Assembly: GCA_937128785.1 (NCBI GenBank) | Contig: CAKZMS010000028.1 | Coordinates: forward strand, 1 to 11,256 | Reading direction: 5' to 3' | DNA from: an uncultured Opitutaceae bacterium | Lineage (GTDB): Bacteria > Verrucomicrobiota > Verrucomicrobiia > Opitutales > Opitutaceae | DNA: 11,256 bases | Part shown: piece after piece, positions 4,018-10,771 of the stretch | Numbering within the stretch: position 1 is the first letter of the stretch | Layout of the letters: each line of letters opens with the position of its first letter | Translations under genes and position numbers: made by a program | Notes under the pieces: model-generated | Databases searched by the model: none | What the model was told of the DNA's origin: nothing | What the model saw: the letters and a program-made list of their open reading frames with translations, nothing else

Positions 4018-5250
4018 CTAAGCGTCCCGGGCCGCCGCTTTTCCCGCCAGATGCCCAGTGGTCCAGGCCGACTGAAAATTGAACCCACCCGTGATCCCAT
4101 CGATATCGAGCACCTCGCCGGCAAAGTGCAGTCCCGGGCACTTACGGCTTTCCATGCGTTTGAAATCGACCTCCTTCAATCGCACGCCGCCGCACGTTAC
4201 AAACTCCTCCTTGTTCATGCTCTTGCCGGTGACCTGAAAGGCACTGCCCGCCACCGCCGCCGCCAGCGCGTTCAATCCCGCCTTCGGCAGATTCACCCAC
4301 ATGGTGCCCTCCGCGATATCGGCCGCCTGCACCAACCGTTCCCAAAGCCGACCCGGCAACCCCAGCGGGTTGGCATTAGGAATCTGTTTCTTGCCGAGCG
4401 CTCCCCGCCCCTCACCAAGTTGCTCCCGCAGGCGTTGTTCGTTGGCATCACCGCTCCAAGCGACTCTCACCTCGAACCGATAATCGTGGGCGGCCAGCTC
4501 GCGGGCTCCCCAGGCCGACAGTCGCAGGATCCCGGGACCGCTCAGTCCCCAATGGGTCACCAACACCGGGCCTCGTTCCCGCAGTTTCGTGCCGGGCACC
4601 CAGACCTCCGCCTCAGGCACCGACAGACCCTCGATACCCGTCAGACGCTCATCTTCGATTTGAAACGTGAAAAGCGACGGCGCCAGAGACTCGATCGTAT
4701 GACCCAGGGACTCCGCCATGGCGTGCCCCCCCGATCCTCGATTGCCGCCGGTGGTGATGATCACGCGATCAAACCGCTCCACGTTGCCGTCGCCCAAAGT
4801 GAGTTGAAATTCGGTTTCGGCGGAACCTTCCAGCGCCCGCACCGGGGTCCGCATGCGCACGGCCACCGCCAACTCCGCCACCGCATGCTGCAGGCAATCC
4901 ACAATCGTGCTCGAGTCATCGGTCGTGGGAAACATCCGCCCAGCGGCTTCGGTTTTCAGGTCCACCCCCCGCGCGGCAAACCAGGCAATCGTTTCCCGGG
5001 GTCCGAATTGATGCAACGGCCCGATGAGCTCCCGCGATCCCCGCGGATACCGTTTTACGAGCTCCCGGGGTTCGAAACACGCATGCGTGGTGTTGCACCG
5101 TCCGCCACCCGAGATCCGGACCTTGGCCAGCGTATGCGCCGTGGCCTCGAAGAGCACCACCTTGGCCGCCCGGTCGGTTTCCGCTGCAGTGATTGCCGCA
5201 AAATACCCCGCGGCCCCTCCGCCAATGATTGCGATTCGTCTCGGATCCAT
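4018..5250 (-). CDS. HI0933/YhiN-family FAD-dependent oxidoreductase
   Basis: A 410-residue flavoprotein of the HI0933/YhiN (BaiN-like) family, predicted to bind FAD non-covalently; the reaction of most members is unknown. The N-terminal Rossmann dinucleotide-binding motif IAIIGGGAAGYFAA (about 6-19) is intact. The family-specific block VRISGGGRCNTTH is at 44-56, followed by GPRETIAWFAARGV and GRMFPTTDDSSTIVDCL. The middle holds RVIITTGGNRGSGGHAMAES and VLVTHWGLSGPGIL, and the C-terminal FAD-contact block GEVLDIDGITGGFNFQSAW is at about 378-396. Length is normal for the family. Its ATG (5250-5248) is only 14 bp from the proposed GTG start of the divergent metallopeptidase, so promoter elements must overlap coding sequence. 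No Shine-Dalgarno sequence is seen. Confidence 0.94.
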   Translation of the reverse strand: MDPRRIAIIGGGAAGYFAAITAAETDRAAKVVLFEATAHTLAKVRISGGGRCNTTHACFEPRELVKRYPRGSRELIGPLHQFGPRETIAWFAARGVDLKTEAAGRMFPTTDDSSTIVDCLQHAVAELAVAVRMRTPVRALEGSAETEFQLTLGDGNVERFDRVIITTGGNRGSGGHAMAESLGHTIESLAPSLFTFQIEDERLTGIEGLSVPEAEVWVPGTKLRERGPVLVTHWGLSGPGILRLSAWGARELAAHDYRFEVRVAWSGDANEQRLREQLGEGRGALGKKQIPNANPLGLPGRLWERLVQAADIAEGTMWVNLPKAGLNALAAAVAGSAFQVTGKSMNKEEFVTCGGVRLKEVDFKRMESRKCPGLHFAGEVLDIDGITGGFNFQSAWTTGHLAGKAAARDA

Positions 5251-5264
5251 GGTTCAACCAACCC

Positions 5265-5636
5265 GTGACGTTTGCGGAGCTGAAAGCAATAGCCGACCAC
5301 GAAGTCGCCACCACCCTCGACGAGCTGCCGGACGAACTACGGGCCCTGGCAGAACGCATCCCCGTGCTCCACCACCACCTGCCCTCCGCCGAGATCCTCG
5401 GCGAGCAGTTCGAGCCCGACATCCTGGGAATGTTCGTGGGTCCTCCCCACAGCGAGACCGGCGGCGACACCAATGACATGCCCTCGCAAATACTGCTGTT
5501 TCTCGGCAATCTCTGGGAATTTGCGGAGGCCGATCGCCAGATCTTCGCCGACGAAGTCCACATCACCTACCTGCACGAACTGGGACACTACTTCGGCTGG
5601 GACGAAGACGATCTGGCCGCGCGGGACTTGGACTGA
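5265..5636 (+). CDS. Small zinc metallopeptidase, DUF1025/zincin-like family
   Basis: A compact acidic protein (123 residues from GTG 5265) of the zincin-like family PF06262 (formerly DUF1025). The zinc-binding and catalytic motif HELGHYFGWDEDDL is near the C-terminus (about 104-117): two histidines and the catalytic Glu, with downstream Gly, Asp and Glu typical of the family's HExxHxxGxxED pattern. Ahead of it are PPDILG-like (EPDILGMFVG) and ILLFLGNLWEFA blocks, the latter matching the family's I-x-x-Y/F-x-x-L-x strand region. Physiological substrates are not known. Start choice: the frame is open from TTG at 5229, but homologues begin with a short TFxEL segment, so GTG 5265 (VTFAELKA) is preferred; the TTG start would overlap the divergent flavoprotein gene by 22 bp. 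No signal peptide; probably cytoplasmic. Confidence 0.88.
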   Translation: MTFAELKAIADHEVATTLDELPDELRALAERIPVLHHHLPSAEILGEQFEPDILGMFVGPPHSETGGDTNDMPSQILLFLGNLWEFAEADRQIFADEVHITYLHELGHYFGWDEDDLAARDLD

Positions 5637-5898: not shown

Positions 5899-6582
5899 AT
5901 GAAGCGTTTTATCCTCCTCGCCCTCGCCTTCACGGCCACCGCACTTGCTGTGCAGGCCGATCGCGCCCTGCCCCGCAAAGACTACGTCACGCGCGTGGAA
6001 TCCTGCGAAGCGATCATCCGCGAATTCCAATATGACCCCGCCACCCGCATTCCCGCGGAGGTCCTCCAGGCCGCGAAAACGATCGTAATCACCAACCAGT
6101 TCAAGGCCGGTTTTATTTTCGGCGTGAAGGACGGATACGGCGTTGTGCTCTCCAAGCGACCCGACGGCACCTGGGGGCTCCCCGCATTCGTCAACGCCGG
6201 TGAAGCCAGCTTCGGCCTGCAACTCGGCGCCAACGCCATCGAGACCGTTCTCATCATCACGGATGAGTCCGTCCAACCCCTGCTCTATAAAAACAAGTTC
6301 AACGTGGGCGTGGACGCCAAGGCCATCGCGGGACCGAGTGTCGCCGAGGCCGAGAAGGTCACCAAGATGCTCAAGGAAGCGCCCATTCTGGTCTACACCA
6401 AGAAGAAGGGGCTCTTCGCCGGAGCGACCGTGAAAGCGGGATGGCTCTCCGCCAACAACCGCGGCAACCGCGCCTTCTACAACACCCGCTACTCCATGCC
6501 GGAGATCCTGGTCGGGGATTGGATTCCTACCCAGCCTGAGGTGGAACCCCTCCGCGACTACATCGGCCAGATCACGCGCTGA
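5899..6582 (+). CDS. Secreted SYLF-domain (Ysc84/YSC84-like) lipid-binding protein
   Basis: A 227-residue protein with an N-terminal signal peptide (MKRFILLALAFTATALAVQA, cleavage likely after QA near residue 20) followed by one SYLF domain. This domain binds phosphoinositides and actin in eukaryotes; in bacteria the proteins are periplasmic or envelope-associated and poorly understood. Typical blocks are seen: EVLQAAKTIVI, KAGFIFGVKDGYGVVL, GLPAFVNAGEASFGLQLG, TVLIITDESVQPLLYKNKF, and the FNVGVDAKAIAGP strand. ATG 5899 is chosen because it begins a clean signal peptide; there is no Shine-Dalgarno sequence. The gene stands alone, preceded by the REP-like element and followed 27 bp later by an intrinsic terminator. 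An envelope stress role is possible but not shown by the sequence. Confidence 0.92.
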   Translation: MKRFILLALAFTATALAVQADRALPRKDYVTRVESCEAIIREFQYDPATRIPAEVLQAAKTIVITNQFKAGFIFGVKDGYGVVLSKRPDGTWGLPAFVNAGEASFGLQLGANAIETVLIITDESVQPLLYKNKFNVGVDAKAIAGPSVAEAEKVTKMLKEAPILVYTKKKGLFAGATVKAGWLSANNRGNRAFYNTRYSMPEILVGDWIPTQPEVEPLRDYIGQITR

Positions 6583-6716: not shown

Positions 6717-7814
6717 TCAGCTCCGCGACTCACGCGGTGGACTCTTGAGCGTCTTGACCATGGCGGCGATGACTTTATCCGCCACCTTCGCCTGCATGGC
6801 CACCCGGCTCAAACCCTTGCCACTCACTTTGCCCGTCTTGTAGCTCCACTTCCGCCCGGGGCCTTTCTGCGCAATGGCCCAGAAGGCGAACGGGTGCTTT
6901 ACCCCGTTGGCCGAATCCGGCTCCGCATACCCCGTCGTGGCCACACCGATGCTGGCGCCCAACTTGGTCGCAGCGCCTTTCGCCATCTGCTCCGCCACCT
7001 TCGGGCTCACCGCATTGCAGTCCTCCGCGAGTTTACGGTTCACGCCCAATTGGGAGACCTTCGCATCGATGGTGTAAGCCGTGATGCCCCCGCGGAAGAA
7101 GTTCGATGCGCCCGAAATCAAGCCAATCCGGGACTGGATCTGTCCCGCTGTCAGGCTTTCGGCGACCGCGAGCGTGCGGCCGGCCCCGGCACCCGTGGTG
7201 AGCCGGGCCTTCAGTCGCATCAAGTCCCCCCAGTCGAACTCACCCATCGGATTAATCGGGTGGCGATAGTGGGACTTTTTGTTGGAGGCCTCTTCGCCCT
7301 TTTTCTCTGCCTTGGCCTGAGCCTGCGCACGGCGCACCCGCCAGCGGAATTCCTTTTTCAGAATGAAACCACAACAGGTCGGCGCCCCGCATCGGCACGG
7401 ATGCTCCTCGTAGTTTTCCCAATCGAATCCGTAGTCGTAATTGAGCTCCTCCCCCGCTGCGATATTACGAACCGCTGAAATCCAAATACCGCCGTCGACA
7501 TAGTCGGTGTCACAATTCGGATCACAGGAGTGATTGATCAACCGCGCCGTGTTCCATTCCACATCGCCGTCGAGATCGTAGCGTTTGTTCAACTCGAAGA
7601 GATAGACACAACCGTCGCCGCCCTTCTCCTGTCGCGCCCGCCGTACTTCGTCGCGTCGATCGGATTCCGCCTTGGTTATTTTTTCACCCACATATTCGAT
7701 CACCTTCGTGCCCGCCGGAATGTCTTTGGCCGCGTAGAGACCGTATCCGTGCACGGCGGAGTCCGCTTTGCGGGCCCAGGGAGAGGTAGTGGGTTTGGGG
7801 TTCTTTTTGCTCAT
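6717..7814 (-). CDS. SET-domain lysine methyltransferase fused to a CinA/PncC-like domain
   Basis: One uninterrupted 365-residue frame joins two domains. Residues about 15-155 are a SET domain (SAM-dependent protein-lysine methyltransferase): [14 protein letters not shown] at 22-35, [24 protein letters not shown] at 78-101 with the NHSCxPNC motif, [10 protein letters not shown] at 121-130, and a post-SET zinc cluster CRCGAPTCC (140-148). A lysine- and alanine-rich linker (about 160-190) leads to a CinA C-terminal/PncC-like domain (about 205-355): AESLTAG at 218-224, [19 protein letters not shown] at 234-252, then [15 protein letters not shown] and [11 protein letters not shown]. PncC enzymes deamidate nicotinamide mononucleotide, but here the usual AGPGG loop reads AEPDS, so activity is uncertain. 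ATG 7814 is chosen because it overlaps the exonuclease stop as ATGA; the open frame continues upstream to 7871 only inside that gene. Confidence 0.92.
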
Positions 7815-8566
7815 GCGATTTCTACGCCAACCGGGCAATGGTCGCTGCCCATGACTTGAGGACTGATCCACGCGCCTTTTACGCGGGGGAGAAATTTCTG
7901 GGAGGCCATGAAGTAATCAATGCGCCACCCGATGTTGCGGCCGCGCGCCCCGGCCCGGTAGGTCCACCACGAGTAGTGCCCGGGGCCTTTTTCGAATTCC
8001 CGAAACGTATCGACAAACCCCTTGGCCAAAAAGCGATCGAACCCCGCCCGCTCTTCCTCCGTGAAACCGGGGTTACCCACATTGGCCTTCGGCCGCGCAA
8101 GGTCGATTTCCTGGTGCGCTACATTCAAATCACCGCAGAAAATGACCGGCTTCTTGCGATCGAGCTTTTTGAGATACTTGCAGAAATCCTCATCCCACCG
8201 TTGGCGATAATCCAGCCTCCGCAGCTCGTTCTGGGCGTTGGGCACATAGACATTAACCAGGAAGAAGTCCTCAAACTCGGCTGTCTGCGTGCGGCCCTCC
8301 TGGTCGTGCTCTTCGCTGCCGATACCTTCGGTCACCTGCAGCGGTGTCACCCGGGAGATGAACCCGGTGCCGCTATAGCCCTTTTTGACCGCGGCGCTAA
8401 AGACGGCAGTGTAGCCTTCGGGCCAATCGACATGCGCCACATCGGCCGGTTGGCACTTGGTTTCCTGGAGACACAAGACGTCGGGCTGCTCGGTCGCCAT
8501 GAAGTCCAAAAACCCCTTCTTTAATACCGCACGCAGGCCATTCACGTTCCAGGAAACCAGTTTCAT
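7811..8566 (-). CDS. xth: Exodeoxyribonuclease III / AP endonuclease
   Basis: A 251-residue ExoIII-type enzyme (AP endonuclease, 3'-5' exonuclease, 3'-phosphodiesterase) of base-excision repair, in the endonuclease/exonuclease/phosphatase fold; cytoplasmic and Mg-dependent. All catalytic landmarks are present: SWNVNGLR with Asn7, CLQETKCQ with metal-binding Glu35, VNVYVPN with Tyr107, FCGDLNVAH with Asp146 and Asn148, GWRIDYF with Asp217, and the terminal [11 protein letters not shown] with Asp242-His243. Length and start ([10 protein letters not shown]) are those of the family. The stop codon TGA overlaps the ATG of the SET-CinA gene by the ATGA arrangement, implying translational coupling. 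It is divergent from the cystathionine gamma-synthase-like gene with a spacer of about 100-118 bp. No Shine-Dalgarno sequence. Confidence 0.97.
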
Positions 8567-8600: not shown

Positions 8601-8684
8601 CAACCCTCCACTTGCTGAAATTGCGGTCACGGCCGTTCGGATTGCCAAGCGCCTCTTCGCCACCCCATGTTGCTCCGCTCCGCC

Positions 8685-10181
8685 ATGTCCATCTTTGCAC
8701 CACTTCCTCTTGGGCAACCCATTCCCGACCGCCCCCACGCGGTTTCGTGCAGCATCCCCACGATGCGGGATGTGGTCGGGTATGAAGAGAAGAATCCGGC
8801 CACCGTCCAGCATCTGACCAGCGGCTACCCGCGCTTCGTACTGCACCAATTTAATGAACGACTAACCGCGTGCATTCGAGAGGAGATCGGGATCGAAGCC
8901 CCCCACACGTGGTTGACCTGTTCCGCGGCGATGGCTCGAAACTTGGTCCAGGAATTGGGCCATGGCGCGCGCGCCTTCGAACATCAAGGTATCCACGGGG
9001 TCGCCCACTCCGGTGATGCCGCCACGGCAACCCAGGCCCGTCGCTATTTGCAGAACATCGGGGGATTCCTCAGTAGCCGCGAAGCCGAAGACCAACTCGC
9101 AGTCCGCGGGTTGATCGCATCGGTCACCGAAGAGCTGGCGCCCCTCGAGGAGGCGGCCGCGACGATTCGCGACGTGCTGGTGGAGGCCCATGCCGGTTCG
9201 CGAACGCAGGATATCTGGCTCGCTCCATCTGGCATGAATGCCTTCCACGCTGCCTGGCGGTCGGTCGCCGACCTTCAGGCGGAACGGGGTCGTACGGTAT
9301 GGATTCAGCTCGGCTGGCTCTACCTCGATACCATCGCCCAGTTAAAACGCTTCGCGCCAGAGAAGGCCGACTACGTCTGCCTCGCCGACGTCAATGACCT
9401 CGCCGAGTTGGAACAAGTCGTCACCGCCGCCGGCGACCGCCTGGGTGGCCTCGTGACGGAAGTGCCCACCAACCCGCTGGTCCACACCGCCGACATCTCG
9501 CGGGTCGCCGGCATCGTCCACCGGGCCGGCGGGCGCGTGGTGCTCGATCCGACCTTGGTTTCGCCTTTCAACATTCGCCTGCTCGAACACAGCGATGTGG
9601 TGGTCAACAGCCTCACCAAATACGCGGCCAACGAAGGCGATGTAATTGCTGGCTCGGTCATCATTAATCCTCACGGCCCCGATGCGGACGTATTACGCGA
9701 GCGTATCGCTTCCCGACTCGATCCCGTTTACCCGCGCGACCTACAGCGATTGGCGGCCCAGATTCCCTACTACGAATCGACTGTTCAGCGCACCAACGAA
9801 ACCGCCCTGCAGGTGGTCGAGTATCTACGCAGCCATCCCACCGTGGAGCGCGTGTGGTGGAGCCTGCAGCCGGAAACCGCCGAAAACTTTGCCCGGATCG
9901 CCCGTCGTCCCGGCAACATCGGCAGCATGGTGAGCTTCACCGTCAACCGCCCCCTGGCCGACATTTACGACCGTCTGCCCCTGCCCAAGGGTCCGAGCTT
10001 TGGCATGAAGCATACGCTCATCTGCCCCTTCATCTACTTGGCACACTATGATCTGGTGACCTCGGAACCCGGCCGCGCCGAACTGGCGGCCGCCGGCATC
10101 CCGACGGAGCTCCTCCGCCTCTCCGTCGGCACCGAATCCGCCGCCGACATCATCGCCGCCCTGGCCGCCGGGTTGGACTAA
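8685..10181 (+). CDS. Cystathionine gamma-synthase-like PLP enzyme (fungal STR2-like)
   Basis: A fold-type I PLP enzyme of the Cys/Met metabolism family, expected to condense an activated homoserine with cysteine to give cystathionine, feeding methionine synthesis. At 498 residues it is about 100 longer than bacterial MetB (about 390), and its N-terminus (GQPIPDRPHAVSCSIPTMRDVVGYEEK) resembles fungal STR2-type enzymes. PLP-site features are TEVPTNPL, VVLDPT with the Asp expected to contact the pyridine nitrogen (Asp288), and NSLTKY with the Schiff-base Lys312; the C-terminal SVGTES block replaces the usual SxGxE. ATG 8685 is preferred over the in-frame ATG 8667 because homology begins close to it; neither has a Shine-Dalgarno site. 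O-acetyl- versus O-succinylhomoserine preference and gamma-lyase activity cannot be excluded from sequence. Confidence 0.85.
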   Translation: MSIFAPLPLGQPIPDRPHAVSCSIPTMRDVVGYEEKNPATVQHLTSGYPRFVLHQFNERLTACIREEIGIEAPHTWLTCSAAMARNLVQELGHGARAFEHQGIHGVAHSGDAATATQARRYLQNIGGFLSSREAEDQLAVRGLIASVTEELAPLEEAAATIRDVLVEAHAGSRTQDIWLAPSGMNAFHAAWRSVADLQAERGRTVWIQLGWLYLDTIAQLKRFAPEKADYVCLADVNDLAELEQVVTAAGDRLGGLVTEVPTNPLVHTADISRVAGIVHRAGGRVVLDPTLVSPFNIRLLEHSDVVVNSLTKYAANEGDVIAGSVIINPHGPDADVLRERIASRLDPVYPRDLQRLAAQIPYYESTVQRTNETALQVVEYLRSHPTVERVWWSLQPETAENFARIARRPGNIGSMVSFTVNRPLADIYDRLPLPKGPSFGMKHTLICPFIYLAHYDLVTSEPGRAELAAAGIPTELLRLSVGTESAADIIAALAAGLD

Positions 10182-10501
10182 GTTGAAGGCCGTTTATGAA
10201 TCAGAAAACCCGCACAACCGGGCGCCTCGAGAATGGGGCCGGGAAAAACGATCATGGAAAATCCTCGCTCTCAATTTGGGTCGGCGCCGGCCCCCCCCCA
10301 CCCGCCACGGTAAGCAGACCACAACCAAGGACTACCTGACTGAGATCAGAAACCGCGACCGAATCCAGAGCCGTGACACCCCTTCGCATTCGCCCTAACG
10401 ATGCTGGCGCGCGCGGCGAACCCGCGCTACCTGGAGTCGGGACATCGAACCCTCAGCCAAGTGGGGCGGTTTCGCCGAAACCGCCGCGGCCACCTCCTTC
10501 G
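10182..10501. other. Gene-free stretch with palindromes and C9 run
   Basis: About 320 bp lie between the PLP enzyme and the DUF167 gene. I see no convincing gene: the open frames here are short, arginine- and proline-rich and resemble no family. It holds a 16-bp GC palindrome with one G-T wobble (10278-10293, GGGTCGGCGCCGGCCC), a run of nine C overlapping its end (10291-10299), and a perfect hairpin at 10465-10485. The composition differs from neighbouring coding DNA, with A-rich patches around 10316-10365. It should carry the promoter for the DUF167-nuclease pair and the end of the PLP-enzyme transcript, but no classical intrinsic terminator with a T-tract is visible. Confidence 0.6.
10465..10485. 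promoter_or_regulatory. Perfect 9-bp hairpin/operator-like palindrome upstream of the DUF167 gene
   Basis: GGCGGTTTC, a 3-base spacer GCC, then GAAACCGCC form a perfect inverted repeat centred 27 bp upstream of the proposed ATG at 10502. There is no T-tract, so it is not a standard terminator. It could be an mRNA leader hairpin or a binding site for a dimeric regulator. Confidence 0.45.
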
Positions 10502-10771
10502 ATGCCACCAACATGCATTTTGCCCATCAAGGCGGTCCCGAATGCCGCTCGCACGGAGGTGGTGGGTTGGCTGGGGGAAGCGCTTAAGGTTCGCGTCAAA
10601 GCACCACCGGTGGACGGCAAGGCCAACGCTGAGCTTTGCCGGTTCATGGCCGGGGAGCTGAAACTGCCCAAATCGGCTGTTTCGATCCATGGCGGAGCAA
10701 CCACTCGCCAGAAACGATTGGAAATACACGGCGTTTCTATAACCGCTTTGCGGGAACGGTTTCCGTTATAA
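10502..10771 (+). CDS. YggU/DUF167 family small protein
   Basis: An 89-residue protein of the YggU/DUF167 family (UPF0235), a small alpha/beta fold of unknown function conserved from bacteria to man. Conserved parts are IKAVPNAARTEVVGW at 9-23, the signature LKVRVKAPPVDGKANAEL at 28-45, LKLPKSAVSIHGGATTRQK at 53-71, and the C-terminal KRLEIHGV. The open frame extends upstream to 10373 as proline- and glycine-rich sequence unlike the family, so ATG 10502 is chosen; it lies just after a hairpin and lacks a Shine-Dalgarno site. It ends 19 bp before the secreted nuclease-like gene on the same strand, so the two are probably co-transcribed. No function can be assigned. Confidence 0.9.
   Translation: MPPTCILPIKAVPNAARTEVVGWLGEALKVRVKAPPVDGKANAELCRFMAGELKLPKSAVSIHGGATTRQKRLEIHGVSITALRERFPL

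Follow-up and report, generated by a model that had tools for sequence, protein, structure and literature searches.

A SET–CinA/PncC-like fusion gene in an exonuclease III gene block of the Opitutaceae

In the stretch of DNA analysed here (the window; 11,256 nucleotides from an uncultured Opitutaceae bacterium) a complete SET domain with its post-SET cysteines and a CinA/PncC-like domain are encoded in a single frame (Table 1), and this SET-CinA* fusion is a genuine single gene under purifying selection. CinA* is the name given here to the CinA/PncC-like type associated with the gene block described below, as distinct from ordinary CinA. A sequence-only reading had proposed that the SET domain runs without a stop into a CinA domain, and both halves were borne out by profile search. 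The SET half matches Pfam PF00856 with 88.4 bits (cut-off 22.4; E 4.9e-25), and the downstream half has the CinA fold, matching PF02464 with 98.8 bits (cut-off 23.5; E 3e-28) and TIGR00199 with 84.0 bits (cut-off 68.9). SET and CinA are the only Pfam matches of the protein at E up to 0.01, the COG1058/MocF N-terminal domain being absent. A longer gene starting from a GTG at 7871 is possible; the fused relatives examined start near the ATG of the window gene. The same reading knew of no characterised protein with such an architecture, and our literature search for a SET-CinA/PncC fusion likewise found nothing relevant. Both domains are themselves known; the SET-CinA* join, the gene block of exonuclease III, optional SET and CinA*, and the E109 signature of CinA* are new to us. 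The SET half also matches the model of the Legionella effector AnkI/LegAS4 weakly (24.2 bits, cut-off 550), which reflects ordinary SET similarity only.

Table 1. Positions in the window of the fused gene, its parts and the neighbouring genes.
Feature	Position	Strand	Remarks
Fused SET-CinA* gene	6717..7814	-	365 aa, ATG start
SET domain	7428..7748	-	Residues 23-129; HGYG 22-25, NHSC 94-97, ELNYDY 123-128
Post-SET cysteines	7374..7397	-	Residues 140-147; zinc-type C140, C142, C147
Linker	7200..7334	-	Residues 161-205: end of helix 154-172, low-confidence 181-190, first CinA* helix from 195
CinA/PncC-like domain (CinA*)	6753..7184	-	About residues 211-353; predicted nucleophile S220, Y247, K252, T294-G295, R337
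Exonuclease III (xth)	7811..8566	-	Directly upstream of fused gene; TIGR00633 335.1 bits (cut-off 99.05)
Ysc84/SYLF-domain gene	5899..6582	+	Conserved downstream flank of block
Zincin-like metallopeptidase gene	5229..5636	+	Conserved flank
PLP enzyme, Cys/Met family, BesB-like	8667..10181	+	Divergent; conserved flank
DUF167/YggU gene	10373..10771	+	Conserved flank

A search of 5.8 billion proteins found 458 relatives of the window protein, and both Pfam domains are present in 20 of the best 120 of these (P0002–P0020 and P0025), among them P0002, which is nearly a copy (99%) of the window protein. In the match list for 252 genomes of the family, where spanning matches stand at the head, a stop-free spanning match was found among the matches listed in five (G000, G002, G004, G005, and G007), all of them from the source genus and accounting for five of its eight genomes. 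The sequence-only reading had pointed to a sequencing error as a way in which its proposal could fail. The assembly of the source genome is fragmentary (774 contigs), and an assembly or sequencing artefact might have joined two genes; however, four further genomes of the genus and the 20 relatives have the identical stop-free join, and dN/dS across the joint is low, which rules this out, and we give it practically no credence. Among the five fused genes (10 pairs) dN/dS (NG86) was 0.06–0.08 for the SET half, 0.12–0.21 for the CinA half, and 0.11–0.44 for the linker, ranges that cover the pairs with unsaturated dS, as dS was near saturation overall (saturated in 6/10, 2/10, and 1/10 pairs, respectively). 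The low ratios in SET, CinA and linker indicate that both halves and the join between them are maintained.

The fusion may on the other hand be a harmless accident, i.e., a stop was lost between neighbouring genes and the two halves work independently without affecting each other. Merging would be mutationally easy, as six further family genomes show, among the matches listed, SET and CinA* in a spanning match interrupted by exactly one stop, and at three more loci (L073, L074, and L111) a single stop is all that separates the two within a common frame. The fused state is also rare (five of 252 genomes among the matches listed), and the linker is the least conserved part of the fused genes (42–61% identity over 10 pairs) and the least confidently modelled at residues 181–190. 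Against this, the fused state has been kept in the 19 proteins of the main fused clade (P0001–P0019; 64–81% identity to the window protein, the near-copy P0002 aside), the linker dN/dS where measurable argues that the join is not free to decay, and P0020 and P0025 perhaps represent further fusions, with a single origin not rejected. We regard an accident as unlikely, yet far from negligible.

The trees contain 25 fused rows, i.e., 21 proteins (one of them the near-copy of the window protein) and four locus copies. Of these rows, 23 group together as one clade both for CinA* (SH-aLRT 99) and for SET (96), supporting a single origin for the main fused clade. P0020 and P0025 were placed outside this clade in quick trees of both SET and CinA*, and it is possible that they are extra independent fusions. 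AU tests do not reject one fused clade, with p 0.36, 0.053, and 0.059 for SET and over 0.78 for CinA, where the free search had missed a better tree. As the tests are compatible with a single clade, repeated independent fusion is not claimed.

The plain reading of the genomic data is that two neighbours in an apparent operon merged when the intervening stop was lost in one sub-clade of the genus. In the window the exonuclease III stop and the SET start share the 4 nt ATGA, and in three genomes of the same genus (G001, G003, and G006) SET and CinA* are separate genes, adjacent on one strand behind exonuclease III. CinA matches were found in 196 of 200 family genomes and SET in 105. The distance between the two was counted in the 72 of these 105 genomes that had CinA* among the matches listed: they lie less than 5 kb apart in 42 and not within 5 kb on one contig in 30, where some assemblies are fragmentary. 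The 42 genomes hold 44 close pairs, 41 on the same strand with CinA* downstream and three divergent. At unfused same-strand loci the distance from the SET stop to the matched stretch of CinA* is 14–218 nt in 25 of 33 cases and 646–1585 nt in the other eight.

Gene order was compared in 60 hand-chosen (not random) neighbourhood stretches, scanned with the window's own proteins, and in 18 further stretches chosen likewise; L103, one of the 60, carries an ordinary CinA and was excluded from the CinA* counts and tree. In the 60 stretches the order in the family is DUF167 and PLP enzyme, exonuclease III, an optional SET, CinA*, and sometimes a PlsC-like gene, followed by Ysc84, zincin, an HI0933-like gene, a membrane transporter, and TerC or GlgA, with some members missing in places. 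Exonuclease III precedes the pair in 30 of 31 same-strand SET-CinA* loci outside the genus, the lone exception being cut by a contig end, and in all six loci of the genus; where CinA* has no adjacent SET, exonuclease III precedes it in 12 of 14 loci. The pattern does not hold for L100, L102, the divergent L090–L092, and four of five SET loci without CinA*. Outside the family exonuclease III was found near SET in only one of 15 loci, there downstream of SET, and near CinA* in none of three, which makes the block a feature of the family; an ancient pairing of exonuclease III with SET was accordingly rejected. As the fusion arose inside this conserved block, exonuclease III is the most consistent genomic partner of CinA*. 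SET and CinA* distances were correlated after correction for exonuclease III (partial r 0.48; 36 loci), none of 2000 label permutations giving a value as high, a test that does not fully remove shared ancestry; the correlation is consistent with a functional tie and also with shared ancestry. For a SET gene in a family-wide block with exonuclease III and a PncC-like gene, merged with the latter in one sub-clade, repair and NAD recycling suggest themselves as the concrete cellular context of a search for its substrate.

Two observations on the neighbourhood may be added. The divergent loci L090–L092 (G020, G035, and G058) show a second arrangement, in which SET shares a strand with DUF167, CinA* is divergent from them, and the stretch contains no exonuclease III. 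The PLP enzyme, which often accompanies the block in the family, matches over nearly its full length the model of BesB (L-2-amino-4-chloropent-4-enoate dechlorinase/desaturase) with 390 bits, below the 800-bit cut-off.

From its residues and fold the N-terminal half is predicted to be a SAM-dependent protein-lysine methyltransferase. The GxG, NHS, and ELxYDY motifs and the post-SET cysteines are all present (Table 1), and H22, G25, N94, H95, C97, E123, Y128, C140, C142, and C147 are invariant in 95 of 95 aligned rows. MLL/KMT2-type SET-post-SET proteins (COMPASS, MLL1-4) differ in that the SET of the window is bacterial and that reader domains and partner subunits are absent from the protein. 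Many bacterial SET proteins are not known to have a substrate within the bacterium itself, and a literature search on SET in Verrucomicrobia found nothing on function. The Chlamydiae, which together with the Verrucomicrobiota belong to the wider PVC superphylum, likewise have bacterial SET proteins (cpnSET, NUE). In a review of bacterial SET proteins the targets described are mostly from the host or in vitro, while cpnSET methylates the bacterium's own H1-like protein Hc1 (PMC3980110); a term search of its main text gave no mention of CinA. An Hc1-like histone, an obvious candidate substrate for the window SET, was dropped: unlike the case of cpnSET, the PF07432 profile found no Hc1 homologue in 29 genomes including the source genome, a profile that matched one of 14 control genomes and that Lys-rich proteins outside the Hc1 family could escape. 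Two unfused SET proteins of the genus (L110 and L111, in G001 and G003) carry a Lys/Arg-rich, histone-H1-like C-terminal tail (Lys or Arg at 24 of 47 and at 30 of 60 positions), which suggests contact with nucleic acid. In the fused proteins compared a less basic linker takes the place of this tail.

For the C-terminal half residues and fold again allow a prediction, namely a PncC-superfamily Ser/Lys amidohydrolase whose substrate would be a nicotinamide nucleotide or a closely analogous compound. Residues are numbered here as in the Agrobacterium tumefaciens enzyme, mapped via the source genome's ordinary CinA, and the 120 CinA* compared, to which all fractions of 120 below refer, are the best 120 of 3261 matches. 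E30, S31, T33, G35, G46, S48, Y58, K63, M88, T105, G106, A108, and R145 are kept in 120/120 of these and in 21/21 fused proteins. This includes the whole NMN deamidase catalytic set (S31, K63, Y58, R145, T105, and G106), and CinA* is likely to be catalytic. Replacing S31, K63, Y58, or R145 of the A. tumefaciens enzyme by Ala gives inactive protein, in the case of R145A because the structure is lost (PMC5384747). The motif ESLTAG is common to the window protein and Streptococcus mutans CinA (6mr3).

Around this conserved core CinA* has changed. In the same best 120 of 3261 matches C32 is replaced by L/M/I/V and G34 by C/S/A, N60 by L/I (119/120), the first G of GAVS by N (106/120), and G120 by P (120/120), and position 107 is Y (120/120) where known PncC have V/I. 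G109 of the ribose loop is replaced by E in 118/120 and in 20 of 21 fused proteins, P0010 keeping the G. The PncC/CinA C-terminal NMN deamidases (E. coli YgaD, A. tumefaciens 2A9S, and T. thermophilus CinA 4CT8) accordingly have V/I, G, and G where CinA* has Y107, E109, and P120; the window protein further differs from them in having no COG1058 domain and in sitting behind a SET domain. Y107 is also found in alignments of the enterobacterial homologues 5kol, which we take to be E. coli YdeJ, and 5kvk. YdeJ is reported as inactive on NMN, a loss attributed to other residues (PMC3855486). These loop changes, E109 above all, imply that the substrate of CinA* may not be NMN. Of the proposals of the sequence-only reading, the fusion itself stands, with two halves that both look catalytically complete; an activity responsive to a nicotinamide nucleotide and the targeting of a PncC-like enzyme to a methylated partner gained no support, and because of G109E and the changes at 107 and 120 NMN itself is perhaps not the substrate.

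It is thus possible, if somewhat doubtful, that CinA*, though related to PncC, acts on a substrate other than NMN and that the fusion links lysine methylation to another amide, e.g., another nicotinamide-bearing compound, a reading that can coexist with the operon part of the explanation preferred below. The near-uniform E109, Y107, and P120 alongside invariant catalytic residues speak for it, as does the score on the NMN amidase model (NCBIfam PRK03661, cut-off 212 bits), where the window protein with 51.9 bits and the stand-alone CinA* P0122, P0125, and P0186 with 51.4–60.9 bits reach about one third of the 164.6 bits of the same genome's ordinary CinA. As that ordinary CinA also falls below 212 bits, however, the cut-off does not discriminate, and it was dropped as proof against NMN. 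Moreover, A108 and G109 touch the ribose through backbone amides (PMC4246079, PMC5384747), so that NMN could still bind after a side-chain change, and one fused protein (P0010) has G109. YxNxxK and GA/VVS have been treated as marks of active lineages (PMC3855486). The window protein is changed at C32, N60, the first residue of GAVS, G109, and G120; T. thermophilus CinA, an active enzyme (PMC4246079), also departs at the first three of these positions in the alignment but keeps G109. CinA* with E109 is best regarded as a CinA subfamily whose substrate is to be tested rather than presumed to be NMN. A further CinA-like protein, from Terrimonas (Bacteroidota; L008, 4944–5435), has a TGYA signature with Ser/Lys/Tyr and is without the phosphate-binding Arg in the alignment. 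The gene preceding it presumably resembles an inorganic pyrophosphatase, and no SET is present among the listed open reading frames of that stretch.

AlphaFold gave a confident two-domain model of the monomer (pTM 0.86), in which residues 181–190 form the lowest inner stretch (pLDDT 67). Its alignment contained neither rows with CinA alone nor the near-copy P0002 nor P0025, a fused protein with a long linker, and the model replaced a first one with a poor SET half (pLDDT blocks mostly 33–67), for which SET-only and CinA-only rows had been mixed. The variable, low-confidence linker gives no hint of coupling between the halves.

The explanation that we prefer, with moderate confidence, is that the protein is a two-headed enzyme derived from the apparent exonuclease III-SET-CinA* operon, in which the heads were joined for co-expression and co-localisation. 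In relatives exonuclease III, SET and CinA* lie next to each other on the same strand; one sub-clade of the genus has lost the SET stop, and purifying selection has kept the joined gene since then. The N-terminal head would carry out SAM-dependent lysine methylation and the C-terminal head would act as a Ser/Lys amidohydrolase. PncC enzymes are dimers in which S48 is contributed across the interface (PMC5384747), and by analogy a CinA* dimer would probably present two SET domains. The fusion would secure equal amounts and one location of both heads, rather than allosteric control.

More tentatively, a DNA repair setting may be suggested by the exonuclease III next door and by the literature, where NMN removal has been connected with NAD-dependent ligase and with repair in a proposal on pncC in recA operons (PMC3680494). 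Exonuclease III would open sites and the NAD-dependent ligase would seal nicks, releasing NMN, an inhibitor of that ligase; the task of CinA* would be to remove NMN or something related to it, and SET would methylate a basic nucleoid or repair protein. The source genome also encodes an ordinary CinA, the NAD-dependent ligase LigA, and NadD, and with an ordinary CinA in the same genome NMN clearing does not need CinA*. It is tempting to go one step further and tie methylation to nicotinamide turnover, SET marking a nucleoid protein, the ligase or a repair protein while CinA* senses or removes a nicotinamide product released by ligation. The methyl mark would then track local ligation or NAD consumption, but we consider this version improbable.

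The sequence-only reading had suggested a methyltransferase responding to a nicotinamide nucleotide; similarly little credence is given to such an allosteric sensor of NAD status, in which binding of the nucleotide by the CinA half would switch SET activity. A SAM enzyme joined to a nicotinamide-nucleotide-binding fold would suit such a role, a pTM of 0.86 leaves room for a defined arrangement of the domains, and SET and CinA* co-vary beyond exonuclease III. On the other hand, a catalytically complete CinA* site favours an enzyme over a pure sensor, the inter-domain stretch is variable and of low confidence, SET and CinA* also occur apart, and SET is present in 105 of the 200 family genomes against 196 with a CinA match. 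A passage that pairs PncC with uL16 (PMC13063428) was set aside, its authors having judged the pair a likely false positive.

The two-headed enzyme proposed here has a parallel in the COG1058-PncC proteins (CinA), in which PncC is likewise joined to a second enzyme and for which a connection with recA operons and with DNA repair has been published (PMC3680494). There, however, PncC is accompanied by an ADP-ribose pyrophosphatase with ties to NAD recycling, whereas its partner in the window is a methyltransferase. Similar SET sequences are also joined to other partners. SET followed by a TrmH-type RNA methyltransferase domain (PF00588) makes up proteins of 341–345 aa (P0069, P0074, P0076, P0078, P0081, P0086, P0088, P0090, P0098, and P0117), some of which are named Omnitrophota TrmH-family proteins by their source. 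P0021–P0023 and P0028, high-ranking relatives of the window protein without a CinA fusion, are tandem SET-SET proteins of about 350 aa.
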